The position numbers were made by a program, and so were the translations under genes. The notes below the pieces were generated by a model that made no database searches, was not told the origin of the DNA, and worked only from the letters and a program-made list of their open reading frames with translations. Shown one piece after another: positions 39,893-46,653 of a stretch of 46,653 bases of DNA. The stretch's first letter is position 1; each line of letters begins with the position of its first letter. The DNA is from Candidatus Thiopontia autotrophica (GTDB lineage: Bacteria; Pseudomonadota; Gammaproteobacteria; GCF-002020875), in NCBI GenBank assembly GCA_014384675.1, contig JACNFK010000028.1, positions 1-46,653 of the forward strand, in the 5' to 3' direction.

Positions 39893-40471
39893 CTACATAA
39901 CCATCTCCGCCCTTACCACATAACGCAATGGGCCTCCGGAAGAGAGCGCATTAAATGGGTAGCAGGTCACCAGCAAAAGCTGACTGATCCTGTCATCACT
40001 AAATATCTGGCCATCTCTGGAATCAACCACATCCAGCGCTACCACTCGATAGAGATCGCCCCTCCCCCTGCTGTTGATCAGGGTTATCTCATCCCCGACA
40101 TCAACCCGTTCCAGCACCCTGAAATGGGTGTCCCGGTGGGCACTTATCATCATCACCCCACTCTCGCCCGGAGCAGCACTCTGAATATTCCAGCCCGGGG
40201 CAAAAGCGAGGGAAGAGCCGCTATCCCCTCGCAACACAATGTAATCCTCATCCTGCCCGGAAAAGAGAAGACGGGCCACCGGCCAGTGGTCGGCCCACGG
40301 CCAGGGCTTGAATGGCTTGCCTGATACAACCGTCTGACTCCAGGCAAACTCCAGCAAGCCCTGTGCCACAACCGCCTTGGCCTGAATCCAGAGACCACTC
40401 CCAAACAGCGCCCCGCCAACAGCAAGTGAGAGAAGCGCCACAACAGTACGAGCCCGCATCTGCATCCCCAC
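39893..40471 (-). CDS. Class GN sortase
   Basis: The 192-residue membrane-anchored transpeptidase has an N-terminal hydrophobic segment (about 8-30), catalytic histidine in MMISAHRDTHF, cysteine in LLLVTCYPFNA and the arginine in GGPLRYVVRAE. This is the class GN (marine proteobacterial) sortase pattern. The GTG at 40471 overlaps the stop of the upstream target gene as TAGTG. An ATG at 40465 would remove two residues. It is dedicated to the neighbouring VIT-VWA protein. Confidence 0.92.
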   Translation of the reverse strand: MGMQMRARTVVALLSLAVGGALFGSGLWIQAKAVVAQGLLEFAWSQTVVSGKPFKPWPWADHWPVARLLFSGQDEDYIVLRGDSGSSLAFAPGWNIQSAAPGESGVMMISAHRDTHFRVLERVDVGDEITLINSRGRGDLYRVVALDVVDSRDGQIFSDDRISQLLLVTCYPFNALSSGGPLRYVVRAEMVM

Positions 40472-42525
40472 TACGCCACAGATCTTCTGCGCAACAGCAA
40501 CAGAGAGAGTAGCAACAGCACTGCCCCACCCATCATCTGAAGCTCCGAGCTGGTGGCGGTTTTTGCCAGTCTCAGCGGTGAGAGGCTATGTTTCATCCTC
40601 ACCTCATGCTGCTCAATCTCGCGCAACTTGTCTGCAGGGGTCATGTCAACTGCCACCAGACTGGTGTACTTGCTAACCAGGTGGTAACGGTGGGCTAGCT
40701 GAATAATTGCATTGCGCACATCCGCCTCATCCGCGCCCTCCACCCTCCTGTCCATCCACGACTCAATCATCCCTCTGCCAAACAGCACCCCCAGACCAGA
40801 CTGCTCAGCACCTCCCGCAAGGGTGACCTCACTGCTCCACTCCATGCCACCCAGAGTTCCGCTCACAACTGCCTTTGTTGGTATCTGTCTCATCTTCATC
40901 GAGATCACCACCGGCTCGCCCCGATAGAGATCCGGCACCCTCTCCGGCAGCATCTGCACCACCTCGCCCTCCACCCCCTCCAGCCTTACCTCAATATTGG
41001 TCAGTACCGCCTGCTCCATTTTGGTAAACAGAGCGTTCATCTTCTCTGCCACTTCGCCATTATCACCAATATAGGTAAAGGTGCCGCGCCCAAAACTGGC
41101 AGACTTGCGCATAAAGTAGCTGTTTGGCGCACTGCCGATACCCACAGTAAAGAGGCGTCTATCCCCAAGGTGATTGTTTATGTAACGGAACAGCTCCTCC
41201 TCATTACCCACCGCACCATCGGTAATAAAGACTACCTGAGCGAGATGACCGCTACCGCTCTCACCCTTTGAGCGCTGCCCAAGGGCAAGCCTTAGCGCCT
41301 TCATCATCTCGGTGCCGCCATCTGCATCAAGACGGGAGACAAAGAGGTCGGCCACCCTGAGCGCCTCCGGTGTTGCCCTCCACGGGACATCAAAAAGCCT
41401 GTCTGCCTCACTATTGAACTCCACAATATTAAAGGTGTCATCCGGGTTAAGCCTGGCCAGTGCCTTCCTCAGCGCATCCTTCGCCTGCTCGATCGACTCA
41501 CCAGACATTGAGCCCGAGGTATCGATCACATAGGTCAGCTCTCGGGGTGGAGCCTTGACCAGGGCACTATCGAGTGGCGGCATCACCATCAACAGCCCGT
41601 GCTGCTCTGTCCCATTACCCTGTTCAGTAAAGAATGCGGCCCGTGGGGCACTGCCAATCCTCGGCCTCCAGTAGAGGACAAAATCATGATCTATGGCATG
41701 ATCTGCGCTATCCAGGGTAACCCTTCTTTTACCCTCTCCAGCGCTGCCTGACGGGATCTCCTTCACCACCTGGTGGTAGCGACTGACCATCTCGTCCAGA
41801 GGAAAACCGGCATTCAGGTTTACCGTCAACGACACTGGAGGGTTATCACTCTTCGAGCGCCCACCGGCATCATTACCATCCACATTGGCAACCGGCATAA
41901 CCCCCCATCCACTATTCAGTTGCAACAATTCGACCAACTCACCCCTCTTGCTCTCATCCTGCAGATTGTCCGGTGGCAGATAACGGGGAGTGACAGCCAT
42001 TGGATAACGAACTGAGAACTTCCCATCCACCCAACTCAACAGCTCCTGATACTCAATCTCTATCTCAACCGAGCCATGGGGGGCAATATTGGCGACAGAA
42101 GTGGTAAACAGGTCCGCTCTGACCTGCTCTACCAGTGATGCCCTCTTGCCTGCACTCTTGGCTTTTTGGTATATCTTTCTGGCCAGCTGCTTCTCCTGAA
42201 TTATCCCCTCAATAATCCTCTCACCAACTATCATCCTCATGTGATCAACTGCTGCGGTCTCCGGTAGCGGGAAGGCATACACCCCCTCCACCCAGCCATC
42301 ACCAGGGTTACTGAATTTCTGTCTCACCCTGGTTCGGGCAACCGGCCCTGCAACATCTATAACCACATCTGTCGAGATGATTGTTGCAACCTCATACTCA
42401 TTTGGGCGATCCGTCTTCAGCAACAACTCGCCACTCTTTACATCATTCATCCTCACCAGCTCTGCCGCACCCGCGACACCTGACAGAACCATCCACAAAA
42501 CCGACAACAGAAACACCCTTCTCAT
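40471..42525 (-). CDS. VIT and VWA domain sortase target protein
   Basis: The start is the ATG at 42523-42525 (MRRVFLLSVLWMVLSGVAGA signal peptide), giving 684 residues. A VIT domain (about 25-150), a VWA domain from about 310 with the MIDAS start YVIDTSGSMSGES, and a C-terminal sorting region follow: LAKTATSS, a hydrophobic helix and RRR. The LxxTAT motif resembles the site used by class GN sortases, with alanine replacing the usual proline. It is likely anchored by the adjacent sortase. Marine gammaproteobacterial families of this type are known, but their role is not established. Confidence 0.92.
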   Translation of the reverse strand: MRRVFLLSVLWMVLSGVAGAAELVRMNDVKSGELLLKTDRPNEYEVATIISTDVVIDVAGPVARTRVRQKFSNPGDGWVEGVYAFPLPETAAVDHMRMIVGERIIEGIIQEKQLARKIYQKAKSAGKRASLVEQVRADLFTTSVANIAPHGSVEIEIEYQELLSWVDGKFSVRYPMAVTPRYLPPDNLQDESKRGELVELLQLNSGWGVMPVANVDGNDAGGRSKSDNPPVSLTVNLNAGFPLDEMVSRYHQVVKEIPSGSAGEGKRRVTLDSADHAIDHDFVLYWRPRIGSAPRAAFFTEQGNGTEQHGLLMVMPPLDSALVKAPPRELTYVIDTSGSMSGESIEQAKDALRKALARLNPDDTFNIVEFNSEADRLFDVPWRATPEALRVADLFVSRLDADGGTEMMKALRLALGQRSKGESGSGHLAQVVFITDGAVGNEEELFRYINNHLGDRRLFTVGIGSAPNSYFMRKSASFGRGTFTYIGDNGEVAEKMNALFTKMEQAVLTNIEVRLEGVEGEVVQMLPERVPDLYRGEPVVISMKMRQIPTKAVVSGTLGGMEWSSEVTLAGGAEQSGLGVLFGRGMIESWMDRRVEGADEADVRNAIIQLAHRYHLVSKYTSLVAVDMTPADKLREIEQHEVRMKHSLSPLRLAKTATSSELQMMGGAVLLLLSLLLLRRRSVA

Positions 42526-42544
42526 AACACCACCCCAAGCAGTC

Positions 42545-42577
42545 AAATAAAAAGGCCCTCCCCAACCAAGGGAGGGC
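42545..42577 (-). terminator. Strong terminator hairpin just upstream of the VIT-VWA gene
   Basis: On the minus strand a perfect 8-bp stem GCCCTCCC/GGGAGGGC (42577-42555) is followed by CTTTTTATTTGAC, and the VIT-VWA start is only about 25 bp further on. It can end transcripts that begin between 42580 and 42790, so either a short RNA or an attenuated leader for the target gene is suggested. Confidence 0.75.
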
Positions 42578-42587
42578 AACAGGAGGA

Positions 42588-42694
42588 GTCACCAAGTGGT
42601 GACCAACGAAGAGTCCCCATTGAAGCAGACAAAAGTGACGAAACCGTGCGCTAAAAGTGGTGATGTAGTGACCAACTAATGTCGGAAAAATGCG
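42588..42694. promoter_or_regulatory. Palindrome and repeated motifs between sortase target and pdsR
   Basis: GTCACCAAGTGGTGAC (42588-42603) is a perfect palindrome, and AGTGGTGATG/AGTGACCAAC repeat near 42656-42675. AAAAGTGACGAAACCGTGCG (42631-42650) matches 17 of 20 bases of a site at 43817-43836, and a related site ATGTCGGAAAAATGCG lies at 42679-42694. These may be operators for the response regulator encoded next door. They sit in the 268-bp divergent region, which holds no gene. Confidence 0.45.
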
Positions 42695-42793
42695 CAACAA
42701 ATGACAAACCTCTGCGTTATGCAATTAACGACACATAGCGTCGCAACATACCAATAGTATTGAGTCAGGCAAACAGATAGAGGGAGAAGAGAG

Positions 42794-43486
42794 ATGAGCT
42801 ATCACATAGCAATCGTAGAAGATGACCGGGACATACTGGACAACTATGCAGACGTATTGGCAGACAAGGGATACCGGGTCTCCCCTTTCACCAACGCAGA
42901 AGACGCCTGGAATGCATTCAACCAGGAGACCCCGGACCTTGCCATTCTCGACATCCAGCTCAAGAACCAGCCCGATGGCGGCTTTGATCTCCACCGCAAG
43001 ATAAACACCCTCTTTCCGGAAAAACCGACCCTCTTCATATCCGGTAGAGATAGCGAAATGGACAAGATAACCGGACTAAAACTCGGCGCCTGGGACTTTA
43101 TGAGCAAACCGGTTGGCCTCGACTACCTTACCGAGAGAGTGCGCTCCTTGATCCAGATTAGCGAAAGCAGAACCAACAACACAGTAGAGGTAATCCCCTA
43201 CTCACAGATCGGCCTGCGGATAAGTGAAGAGCAGATGACAGTACACTGGTTTGGCAACAGAGTAGATCTCACCCTCACAGAGTTCTACATCCTCAACCTG
43301 CTGGCTTCACAACGGGGGCGGGTACGCAGCTACGATGAGCTAAAGGGGATAACCCGTCAACGCTACGTAGAGGCCAACACAGTTACCGGCCACATCAGAC
43401 GGATCAGAAGAAAATTCCAGAAAATCGACCTCAAATTCAAGGGGATCAAGAATGTCCATGGAGTTGGGTATCGGTGGCAGGGGTAA
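42794..43486 (+). CDS. pdsR: Sortase-system response regulator, PdsR-like (OmpR family)
   Basis: The 230-residue protein has a receiver domain with E9-D10-D11, phosphorylation site D53 (AILDIQL), S83 (FISG) and K105 (SKPVG), then an OmpR-type winged helix (about 130-228, VDLTLTEFYILNLLA and TVTGHIRRIRRKFQ). A regulator of this type accompanies the class GN sortase in the proteobacterial dedicated sortase system. The usual histidine kinase is not next to it, so it is an orphan here. Divergent from the target gene, it probably controls it. Confidence 0.85.
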   Translation: MSYHIAIVEDDRDILDNYADVLADKGYRVSPFTNAEDAWNAFNQETPDLAILDIQLKNQPDGGFDLHRKINTLFPEKPTLFISGRDSEMDKITGLKLGAWDFMSKPVGLDYLTERVRSLIQISESRTNNTVEVIPYSQIGLRISEEQMTVHWFGNRVDLTLTEFYILNLLASQRGRVRSYDELKGITRQRYVEANTVTGHIRRIRRKFQKIDLKFKGIKNVHGVGYRWQG

Positions 43487-43520
43487 CTCTCCAGCGGAGC
43501 ACGCTGATACCTAAATACAG

Positions 43521-43757
43521 TCAGGAATAACGCTCCAGATCACTGCCGATATCAGTATCAATTACCACTAGCCTTACACTCCTGCTGATGCCGCCGGCTA
43601 TCAGATTACGGATAGCATTGCGCCCACCGCCACCAACACCCATTACCGTAATCCTCGCACCAGAAGGCCTCATCACCATCTTCATCGCCTTGCTGAGCAG
43701 ATTCTCAGACCTGCACCCGCCATCCACCTGTGAAATATCTGTAAGTAAACTAGCCAT
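43521..43757 (-). pseudogene. FtsZ/tubulin-like N-terminal fragment
   Basis: The 78-residue ORF contains RITVMGVGGGGRNAIRNLIA (about 35-54), the T1 glycine-rich loop of FtsZ, and RLVVIDTD before a stop. It therefore covers only the first beta-alpha-beta unit; the T4 GGGTGTG loop and T7 are missing. No continuation is seen in other frames up to pdsR. It may be a decayed paralogue or a short protein derived from one. It resembles the start of the FtsZ-like domain at 44319-45290 (both have VxGVG...NxxxNx...VIDTD). Confidence 0.6.
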
Positions 43758-43816
43758 ACCCTAGACAACCAATAATAGAGAAACGAAGCGACACTGTCTG
43801 TCGCCAATAATGCGGT

Positions 43817-43836
43817 AAAAGTGTCGAAAAAGTGCG
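43817..43836 (+). promoter_or_regulatory. Repeated motif matching the pdsR upstream region
   Basis: AAAAGTGTCGAAAAAGTGCG differs at three of 20 positions from 42631-42650. It lies 60 bp upstream of the FtsZ-like fragment. A short inverted repeat GCGACA/TGTCGC (43788-43804 region) is close by. A shared regulator binding site is possible. Confidence 0.4.
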
Positions 43837-43865
43837 AATGTGTAAAAAACAGCATGTTTACGAAA

Positions 43866-43911
43866 AGTAGACACAAAGTAGACACACGCCCGGAAGGAAA
43901 AAGTAGACACA
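43866..43911. repeat. Left direct-repeat cluster of the integration scar
   Basis: Two tandem AGTAGACACA units occur at 43866-43886 (21 bp in all) and a third at 43902-43911. Between them lies CGCCCGGAAGGA (43887-43898), a second 12-bp copy of the tRNA-Arg end seen at 43982-43993. The 21-bp pair recurs exactly 240 bp downstream. Such arrays resemble integrase arm-type sites, an inference. Confidence 0.6.
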
Positions 43912-43939
43912 AAAAAAGGAGCCTCAAAAAGACTCCTTT
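43911..43939 (-). terminator. Terminator behind the tRNA-Arg end
   Basis: On the minus strand the stem AAAGGAG/CTCCTTT is followed by a run of T residues. It lies 38 bp past the tRNA-Arg CCA end on the same strand, as expected for a native tRNA terminator. Confidence 0.7.
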
Positions 43940-43976
43940 CATTAATAGGTTACAACGCACTTGCAGCCTTGGTATT

Positions 43977-44000
43977 TGGCGCGCCCGGAAGGATTCGAAT
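43977..44000 (-). other. 3' end of a tRNA-Arg gene, probable att core
   Basis: The minus strand carries the last 24 nt of a tRNA: T-loop TTCGAAT, CCTTC, the acceptor strand CGGGCGC and GCCA. It matches the 3' end of tRNA-Arg genes whose acceptor starts GCGCCCG. The 5' part, including the matching GAAGG strand and anticodon arm, is absent to the right. This is what integration into a tRNA gene leaves at the far end of an island. It is not a functional tRNA. Confidence 0.7.
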
Positions 44001-44105
44001 CTGCAAAAACGGTATGTAACCAATTGATATTATTGTTGTTTTTAGTGAATCCATCCGAACAAATCCAATCATTCACAACAATATACATCAATAACTTACA
44101 AACTG

Positions 44106-44126
44106 AGTAGACACAAAGTAGACACA
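44106..44126. repeat. Right direct-repeat copy of the integration scar
   Basis: The 21-bp sequence is identical to 43866-43886, in the same orientation, 240 bp apart, and consists of two AGTAGACACA units. The tRNA-Arg end at 43977-44000 lies midway. Confidence 0.7.
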
Positions 44127-44171
44127 ACCTAAGCGCGCTGGCTTGCGGCTATTATACCTTAACCTTCAATC

Positions 44172-44203
44172 AACCACCCTCAGTAACGGGGGTGGTTTTC
44201 TTG
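44172..44203 (+). terminator. Rho-independent terminator on the plus strand without an upstream gene
   Basis: The stem AACCACCC/GGGTGGTT is followed by TTCTTGT on the plus strand. No gene ends before it on this strand. It could end an unseen small RNA starting in 44000-44160. The 43758-44318 stretch has otherwise only the integration scar described here. Confidence 0.6.
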
Positions 44204-44318
44204 TAATTACTGTCAACAGTGGTGTACGGTTACCATGCTCCGTAGTAGCTTTATCTAAACTAGCTGTTGGGGCAGGTCTGTTTAGCGTTGTGCAACAATC
44301 TGTAATACTTGCTGTTTC

Positions 44319-45290
44319 ATGGCTGGATCAAGCATAATGACTAGAATGAATAACGATGCCGCGTTAAGTGTTCACGCCAAGCAGGTCTTCTATTCTGGAA
44401 TGATGCTTGGCTTCTTCTATGTGGGTTTGATCACACTGCACCAGGCTTTCATTGCGGCCTTTGTCATCTCTATAGTGCTTCAAACTACTCACACTGAGAG
44501 GCGGACTCTGCCGCGATCTAAGGTAGTAAAGCGTGACAATGTTGTAGTTAAGGAGGGGGCGCTGCCTAAGAACTCCGCTGCTCAGCCAATGACTGCAAAG
44601 AGTAGGCCTGTACCTAAGTGTCCTCAGCCGTTCAGATTGACTAATGAACAATCAGTGATGTTGGCTGAAATAAAACCAAGAGAGCGTAAGAAGGTCACTA
44701 GGATCAATGCGGAGTTCTATCGCCCTGAGATCTCTCTGCAAAGGTTTGCTCCATCCAGCGATACAGCAGTTGTTGGAGTAGGGTGTGCTGGCATCAATAC
44801 TGTAGATTTTCTGGTTCAGTCAGGTGTCAGAAGTGCTGATACGATTGTGATCGATACTGACCTGCAGACTCTGCACAGGTCTAAGGCTGATTGTGCTCTG
44901 TTTATTGGTGACCAGAAGGATCAAGTTGAGTCTTTAGTTCAGCAGTCACTAGATCAGATCCAGTCAGCCTATCAGCAAGCGGATACTCTCATTGTGCTTA
45001 CCGGTATGGGGGGTAAGACAGGGACTGTTGTTGCTCCGCTATTAGCTAAAACAGCCAAAGAGCGGGGCAAAGTTGTTCACCTGTTTGCTATAGAGCCGTT
45101 TGCTATTGAGGGGCAAGCTAAAACAGATCTCTCTACTGGGGTGCTGGATAGCCTGAGAGGTAATCTGGACTCTGTTGAGTCTCTCTCAAATGAGGATCTT
45201 CTGAGCTCATTTTCTGGTAATCAAAAGTTGGTTGATGCCTTTGCGGAAGTTAATGAGGTGTTGGCTGAATTAATGAAGCGGGCTGCATAA
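44319..45290 (+). CDS. Membrane-anchored FtsZ/tubulin-like GTP-binding protein lacking the T7 region
   Basis: The 323-residue protein has a hydrophobic N-terminal stretch at about 24-54 (one or two membrane helices), a basic, Pro-rich linker (about 55-145) and an FtsZ-type Rossmann domain: T1 VVGVGCAGINTVDFL (151-165), VIDTDLQTL (177-185), the tubulin signature as GMGGKTGTVVAP (229-240) and AIEPFAIEG (257-265). The ORF ends at VLAELMKRAA, where FtsZ would enter helix H7 and the T7 loop, so the catalytic aspartate is absent. GTP binding is plausible; hydrolysis by the usual polymer interface is not. The ATG at 44337, overlapping a TAA, is an alternative start. Confidence 0.75.
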   Translation: MAGSSIMTRMNNDAALSVHAKQVFYSGMMLGFFYVGLITLHQAFIAAFVISIVLQTTHTERRTLPRSKVVKRDNVVVKEGALPKNSAAQPMTAKSRPVPKCPQPFRLTNEQSVMLAEIKPRERKKVTRINAEFYRPEISLQRFAPSSDTAVVGVGCAGINTVDFLVQSGVRSADTIVIDTDLQTLHRSKADCALFIGDQKDQVESLVQQSLDQIQSAYQQADTLIVLTGMGGKTGTVVAPLLAKTAKERGKVVHLFAIEPFAIEGQAKTDLSTGVLDSLRGNLDSVESLSNEDLLSSFSGNQKLVDAFAEVNEVLAELMKRAA

Positions 45291-45341
45291 GCTGAAGTGC
45301 CCGTAACCAAATGATCCTACAGGGAGCGGGTGGATAGATAG

Positions 45342-45899
45342 TTGCCCACCAAGAATAAAGTCGCTACGAAATACTACGTCTTCTTCGGGAAGATCGATCG
45401 ATATGACGTGCTATTCAGCTCAAATATAAATCACGACATTGATAACCGTCATCAACAACACGATGAGATGGAGGTCTTCCACTACCTTAGAGTCATCAAA
45501 CTCCAAGGTACGTGCATTGAGTCCGATGAACGAGACGGAGATCGACTTTACATCACCCTCTACGGGGAAGACCGCGGCAGTAACAGCGTTGGCAGCACTC
45601 TAGCCGACCACAAAGTCCTAGATAAAGACGGCATCCAGAAGTGGCGGAAGATAAGAGGTGAGAGTTTTCCCGTCTACGACCCACCAGATCATATTGGGCA
45701 TATTGATAAAGTGCGCGGGGAAAATGCCTGGAACATTTACCTTTGGTTACCTGACTCCCAGTTCGACCGCATAGCAGCCCTACTCTACTCAGGTAGACAG
45801 ACTTACGCACACCTGAATGAGCTACAAAAAGGTCGTCACAAGTTCCTTCGCTGGATCGAGCTATCCACTGAACATCCCGCCGGGGATGAAGTTGAGTGA
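45342..45899 (+). CDS. Hypothetical protein, 185 residues
   Basis: The open frame begins at a TTG with GGGAG upstream and encodes a soluble, acidic and aromatic-rich protein (TKYYVFFGKIDRYDVLF, LRVIKLQGTCIESDERDG, WNIYLWLPDSQFDRIAALL). I recognise no domain, signal peptide or membrane helix. It follows the FtsZ-like gene by 51 bp on the same strand and may share its transcript. The unusual start and lack of relatives keep confidence moderate. Downstream to 46075 nothing convincing is seen. Confidence 0.6.
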   Translation: MPTKNKVATKYYVFFGKIDRYDVLFSSNINHDIDNRHQQHDEMEVFHYLRVIKLQGTCIESDERDGDRLYITLYGEDRGSNSVGSTLADHKVLDKDGIQKWRKIRGESFPVYDPPDHIGHIDKVRGENAWNIYLWLPDSQFDRIAALLYSGRQTYAHLNELQKGRHKFLRWIELSTEHPAGDEVE

Positions 45900-46075
45900 A
45901 CCAGCACCACATCAGCACCCAACAGCTCAGACAATTTCTCCTTGGTTATCTCCATCTTCTCCTGTATGACGCTGGTTTGGGGTGACAAACCGTCTTTCAC
46001 TGTGGCGGTTATGGTTGTTGTAGCAGACAACACCACACTCTTTACTGATGGCTGTTACAACTAGTTGGCTCTCCC

Positions 46076-46531
46076 TCAGCGAGAGAGTCGTTGCGCCTCT
46101 TCAATTTGGAAATCAGTCATCTCGAGGCTTATGAGATCCCTAATTTTTGTAGCGTCTTTATCACCAGATGCGACGGCAAGATTCAACCACATATAGGCAA
46201 ACACATAATCCTCGGGGACCCCCTCGCCCTTGGCGTACATCACCCCAAGGTTGAACTGCGCTTTCGCAAACCCCTGTCTAGCCGCCATGCGAAACCAGCG
46301 CGCAGCCTCTTGGTCATCCTCAGGAACCCCTCTGCCATTGTCGTACATCACTCCAAGGTTGAACTGCGCACCTGCGTCCCCCTGTTCAGCCAGTGGGCGC
46401 CACTCTGCCAGTGCGGTTTCGGAGTCACCTTGTTTAGCCGCTTGTAACCCCTCCTGAAAACCGGATACAGCAGCAAAACTACTCATCAGTAGCCAGAATC
46501 CAGTCGCCCCTCTACAGTAAACTGATCTCAT
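46076..46531 (-). CDS. Sel1-like repeat protein, secreted
   Basis: The 151-residue protein has an N-terminal signal-like segment (GATGFWLLMSSFAAVSG), then two clear Sel1 repeats with AQFNLGVMYDNGRGVPEDDQ and AQFNLGVMYAKGEGVPEDYV (about 56-128) and a partial third unit. Such repeats form alpha-solenoid protein interaction surfaces, here probably in the periplasm. Specific partner unknown. Short family member. Confidence 0.9.
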   Translation of the reverse strand: MRSVYCRGATGFWLLMSSFAAVSGFQEGLQAAKQGDSETALAEWRPLAEQGDAGAQFNLGVMYDNGRGVPEDDQEAARWFRMAARQGFAKAQFNLGVMYAKGEGVPEDYVFAYMWLNLAVASGDKDATKIRDLISLEMTDFQIEEAQRLSR

Positions 46532-46577
46532 TTTCCCTCTCCCCGCTTCCCAAACGCCACCATCTATTCATCTTCCA

Positions 46578-46653
46578 TCACCCCCCAACAGCTTTCACGT
46601 TCTCCGCCAACAGGCGCAACACAAAATGGTACGCAATCATCCCTATCAATAAA
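46578..46653 (-). CDS. C-terminal end of an unknown gene (partial)
   Basis: The minus strand from the window edge stays open for 24 codons (LLIGMIAYHFVLRLLAENVK and AVGG) and stops at a TGA at 46580-46578. The sequence looks like a hydrophobic C-terminal helix. Too short to identify, and it may not be a gene. Confidence 0.3.
   Translation of the reverse strand, partial: LLIGMIAYHFVLRLLAENVKAVGG

Follow-up and report, generated by a model that had tools for sequence, protein, structure and literature searches.

A predicted membrane-anchored half of FtsZ, devoid of T3 and T7, in Candidatus Thiopontia autotrophica and its possible role at division filaments

In a growing FtsZ filament, a subunit meets its neighbour through unlike faces, the N-terminal one bearing the nucleotide and the C-terminal one bearing T7. 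The known natural antagonists of FtsZ (SulA, MciZ and MinC) are unrelated to FtsZ. SulA, MciZ and probably MinC block the C-terminal face, which is the common target of negative modulators of FtsZ (PMC11938149). As for divergent FtsZ-like proteins, elements T6 to H7 are not identifiable in family FtsZl1, of which the crenarchaeal protein SSO1376 from Sulfolobus carries N-terminal transmembrane helices and is disrupted by a transposon (PMC2875224). Family FtsZl2, of the PFL_1302 type, kept T7 and displays a C-terminal region of ~300 amino acids (PMC2875224).

The window considered here is the whole of contig JACNFK010000028.1 (46,653 nt; assembly GCA_014384675.1) from Candidatus Thiopontia autotrophica, a marine bacterium whose 1.58 Mb genome (G000, where this contig is C28) is 98.6 % complete. 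It was compared with five other species of the genus (G001 to G005), of which G002 is represented by a genome 84 % complete and G005 by a MAG from Saanich Inlet. A complete ORF, located exactly at positions 44319-45290 of the forward strand, encodes a protein of 323 amino acids, here called half-FtsZ. Its residues 149-318 matched positions 20-198 of the 353 composing the ftsZ model TIGR00065 (E = 1.7e-29), and residues 150-296 matched Pfam Tubulin (PF00091; E = 5.5e-19; 69.6 bits versus a gathering cut-off of 33). The TIGR00065 score was below the equivalog cut-off (103.3 versus 295.2 bits) and the nearest solved structures were all FtsZ. Judged by these profile matches, half-FtsZ belongs to the FtsZ/tubulin superfamily as an offshoot of FtsZ proper, and is not an FtsZ orthologue. 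The odds of a stop-free frame of 323 codons at this base composition are about 1e-8.

A membrane segment was predicted at approximately residues 22-55 (44382-44483), forming one long or two short helices; hydropathy peaked at residues 35-53 (Kyte-Doolittle mean of 2.14 per 19 residues), and a long N-terminal helix was modelled from residue 4 to 61. The following linker (residues 56-147; 44484-44759) is basic, with 20 K+R versus 9 D+E over 93 residues, and appears disordered, pLDDT being below 50 over residues 59-144. The remainder (residues 148-323; 44760-45287) corresponds to the N-terminal, nucleotide-binding domain of FtsZ. T1 reads GVGCAGIN (44775-44798) and aligned with GVGGAGGN of the organism's own FtsZ; it is followed by DTDLQTL at the T2/T3 start, by the tubulin/FtsZ signature GMGGKTGT in T4 (45003-45026), where K replaces G, by SNEDLL in T6 and by LVDAFAEVNEVLAELMKRAA in H7, after which the protein ends. 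The T4 signature, the Asn of T6 and the Phe of H7 were kept, while the Asp of H7 in FtsZ (EADNVL) is replaced by Asn (EVNEVL). Half-FtsZ thus resembles FtsZ in its Rossmann N-domain and in the motifs from T1 to the start of H7, and differs from it by the absence of T3, T7 (NxDxxD), the C-terminal domain and the tail, and by the added membrane segment and linker. The initial annotation had proposed the membrane segment, the basic linker and a T7-less FtsZ-superfamily domain displaying T1, DTD and the K-for-G signature, all of which were recovered here, the domain through profile matches and the lack of any downstream remnant of the missing part. The loss of T3 is additional to the features it listed: in the alignment with own FtsZ, the phosphate loop (GxGAGxxP, ~10 residues; GRGAGAKP in own FtsZ) was deleted at 44910-44927.

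An AlphaFold model (pTM 0.53) was built from an alignment of half-FtsZ with 33 FtsZ sequences taken from viral contigs. It displayed a confident core at residues 146-323, with pLDDT mostly between 70 and 90, which superposed on FtsZ residues 11-198 with Z values of 21-23 and an rmsd of ~2.2-2.6 Å over ~178 residues (Foldseek, VIA-align 2). The FtsZ Rossmann domain was present in this model. Since FtsZ sequences made up the alignment, this agreement checks consistency but does not prove the fold independently; the sequence match is by itself decisive. The superposition ended at residue 198 of S. aureus FtsZ, which lies in H7 before T7, and half-FtsZ therefore stops inside this helix. The last modelled helix (residues 304-322) covers the first part of H7 (45228-45287), just before the position of T7; the initial annotation, which placed the protein end just after H6, was mistaken, as ~19 residues of H7 are included.

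Kinship to FtsZl1 or FtsZl2, also suggested initially, found no support. Half-FtsZ lacks the extended coiled coil and the C-terminal helical domain that follow the FtsZ domain in FtsZl1 (Tubulin_2, PF13809); membership was rejected, since no Tubulin_2 was encountered among Pfam matches to E = 10 and the protein ends with its FtsZ half-domain. SSO1376 is the closest published parallel in architecture, with transmembrane helices on an FtsZ-like protein. Half-FtsZ and FtsZl2 are alike in being proteobacterial FtsZ-like proteins, but membership was again rejected in view of the missing T7 and ~300-residue C-terminal region. Unlike CetZ, half-FtsZ has no C-terminal domain. A weak partial match to PhuZ (residues 148-281; PHROG 4733, E = 2.9e-9) stopped before T6/H7; in contrast to PhuZ and TubZ, half-FtsZ lacks T7 and is not a full-length phage or plasmid tubulin, and its match to FtsZ was much stronger. 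Single-sequence scans of genome contigs and viral contigs, which are of low sensitivity as their patterns derive from one sequence, found no relative. PADLOC, and Rfam on positions 43400-46653, gave no match. In IMG/VR, FtsZ proteins are encoded by 75 contigs labelled viral (L087 to L161); the majority approach full length, with ~50 % identity to FtsZ of G000. Either phages carry these genes or host DNA was misassigned.

One further tubulin-family gene was found in the G000 genome, on contig C29; it encodes an FtsZ of 382 amino acids with an intact T7 (NVDFADV, INVDFADVKTVMSEMG). Half-FtsZ is 31 % identical to this protein, whereas FtsZ of two congeners displayed 88 and 78 % identity to it, which indicates that half-FtsZ is an old or fast-evolving paralogue and not a fresh truncation. 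Ordinary FtsZ was found in five of the six genomes of the genus, none being seen in the 84 % complete G002. The five congeners were searched for an intact, T7-containing orthologue, which would have made half-FtsZ a merely truncated copy; nothing beyond ordinary FtsZ was retrieved. Downstream of half-FtsZ, the three forward frames contained no remnant of T7 or of the C-terminal domain up to position 46100. A frameshifted or truncated FtsZ was rejected on the grounds of this missing remnant and of the intact FtsZ elsewhere in the genome. As the 323 codons remained open despite strong divergence, the gene has most likely been under selection.

A second FtsZ-like protein was encountered in G005 (L023:5182-6246). 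It is 354 amino acids long and displays two N-terminal hydrophobic helices, a linker and a domain lacking both T3 and T7; the glycine-rich T4 signature is also lost. It is 28 % identical to half-FtsZ over 163 residues and grouped with it at 99 % ultrafast bootstrap, on very long branches. The membrane-anchored form is thus present in two of the six species. A profile made of both proteins was applied to 369 gammaproteobacterial genomes; apart from these two, every listed match was a full-length FtsZ frame. The initial annotation had raised the possibility of a distinct group; such a group exists, but it is tiny: the genus has a single other protein with this architecture, and no further one appeared among the matches listed from the 369 genomes.

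The G005 gene is flanked by an AAA/VWA-type gene pair on one side and, on the other, by a conserved gene that precedes yaaA (names at this slot, such as VWA and yaaA, were read from sequence, the AAA assignment was computed). G002 displayed at the same slot (L075:1012-1641) a two-helix protein of 209 amino acids without FtsZ domain, related to the G005 protein by its helices (43 % identity over 56 residues) and its C-terminal tail (40 % over 104 residues). The slot was empty in G000 and G003, and in G001 another gene directly followed the VWA gene. The membrane scaffold at this slot thus occurs with and without an FtsZ domain; within the genus, the half-domain was therefore either acquired by this scaffold or lost from it. 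G002 also encodes a third kind of T7-less half-FtsZ (L039:658-1413, reverse strand), apparently soluble, of 251 amino acids (TIGR00065 E = 1.1e-13).

On the strand opposite to half-FtsZ and 560 bp away from it, a gene at 43521-43757 encodes a protein of 78 amino acids (mini-FtsZ) composed only of β1-T1-H1-β2-DTD of FtsZ (TIGR00065 E = 3.2e-6). It was found in four of the six species, namely in G000 and, at 69, 52 and 48 % identity, in G004 (L037:2346-2582), G002 (L039:1343-1591) and G005 (L038:2244-2549), and was restricted to this genus in a scan of 84,980 species. All copies stop shortly past the DTDxGxDxxRY motif. Comparison of G000 with G004 gave a dN of 0.19 and a dS of 1.35, a ratio of ~0.14 pointing to purifying selection; the neighbouring response regulator displayed 0.08 and 1.40. 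By its conservation, mini-FtsZ is a real gene, its fold being supported by sequence alone as the AlphaFold model was poor (mean pLDDT 53). Neighbouring genes encode a response regulator, a VIT/VWA protein and a sortase in G000 and G004, and a WYL-type regulator (label read from sequence) in G002 and G005; the G002 copy overlaps the start of the gene for the soluble half-FtsZ. The cluster of sortase, VIT/VWA (inter-alpha-trypsin-like) protein and response regulator, located at 39893-43486 of the window and at L037:2753-6320, adjoins mini-FtsZ in two species. Mini-FtsZ is possibly more surprising than half-FtsZ, and it poses the question of what one lone β-α-β unit of FtsZ can do.

These relatives bear on a re-use of the Rossmann domain in which half-FtsZ would have no action on FtsZ. 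As a small module carried by a membrane protein, and perhaps jointly with mini-FtsZ, the domain would instead bind either a nucleotide or a protein. The occurrence of one scaffold with and without the FtsZ domain at a single slot, the loss of T4 in G005, the retention of mini-FtsZ in four of the six species with adjacency to a half-FtsZ in two, and the lack of obvious division genes nearby all agree with such a module. The features that half-FtsZ itself kept (T4 signature, T6 Asn, H7 Phe) and its best matches, which are FtsZ, speak for a closer tie to FtsZ, and we regard re-use as rather unlikely.

In the region between mini-FtsZ and half-FtsZ (43855-44137), AGTAGACACA repeats are clustered at 43855-43911 and again at 44095-44137, on either side of a core at ~43977-44004 that resembles a tRNA 3' end. 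The attP site of a tyrosine-integrase element has this layout, with repeats flanking a tRNA-type core. The repeats were unique in the G000 genome, while the core matched three other places in it; ARAGORN detected no intact tRNA in the region. The initial annotation had placed half-FtsZ beside an integration scar: an attP-like arrangement does adjoin the gene, but nothing ties half-FtsZ to a mobile element. Downstream, at 45342-45899 of the forward strand, follows an orphan ORF of 185 amino acids assigned to no family and found in none of the five congeners.

Both features could fit an FtsZ paralogue that a rearrangement close to the scar cut short and that is now decaying without function, as could the missing T3, T7 and C-terminal domain and the 31 % identity to own FtsZ. 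Such decay is hard to reconcile with an intact frame of 323 codons that kept strong FtsZ similarity despite its divergence and whose lost half left no trace in any forward frame downstream; G005, moreover, displays the same loss of T3 and T7 at a place without this scar. Decay is accordingly considered improbable. Half-FtsZ might also belong to the cargo with which a mobile element, inserted at the tRNA-like site, disturbs the division of its host; the attP-like repeats lie 180-460 bp upstream of the gene and the orphan ORF is absent from the congeners. Neither an integrase nor a phage gene was found near the scar, GC content and codon positions of half-FtsZ are native-like, and the G005 copy occupies a chromosomal neighbourhood; tblastn against phages and plasmids returned, among the matches listed, FtsZ-type proteins only, at no more than 35 % identity. 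Cargo is therefore held to be very unlikely.

Our preferred reading, at a probability of roughly 0.4, is that half-FtsZ may be a lineage-specific, membrane-tethered paralogue of the FtsZ N-domain that would cap FtsZ filaments, sequester them as a decoy or tether them locally. The N-terminal hydrophobic segment and the flexible basic linker would tether it to the inner membrane, with the FtsZ half-domain on the cytoplasmic side. Possessing only the N-terminal polymerisation face, and neither T7 nor C-terminal domain, it could not extend a filament. Where a true FtsZ subunit exposes its C-terminal (T7) face, half-FtsZ might instead bind there and, on its anatomy, would thereby cap, sequester or tether FtsZ filaments at the membrane. 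Half-FtsZ may bind nucleotide; GTP hydrolysis at its site is doubtful since T3 is lost and residues of T4 and H7 are changed. With T3 lost, Asn in H7 and K in T4, the protein may even be unable to bind nucleotide, and its polymerisation face may be changed. As the G005 protein has no T4, a binding function need not be common to both.

The partial FtsZ proteins of this genus more likely regulate the division filament, or act on it as decoys, than represent broken genes. That the genus built a whole set of them (membrane-anchored half, soluble half and mini-FtsZ) as dedicated FtsZ regulators, decoys at filament ends that descend from the filament protein, is a more speculative proposal, which we consider possible but doubtful. 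Half-FtsZ would share with SulA, MciZ and MinC its proposed target, the C-terminal polymerisation face of FtsZ, and would differ from them in that the binder is itself half of an FtsZ. If true, half-FtsZ would be an end-capping decoy made from the polymer protein itself, which would offer a simple evolutionary route to filament regulators.
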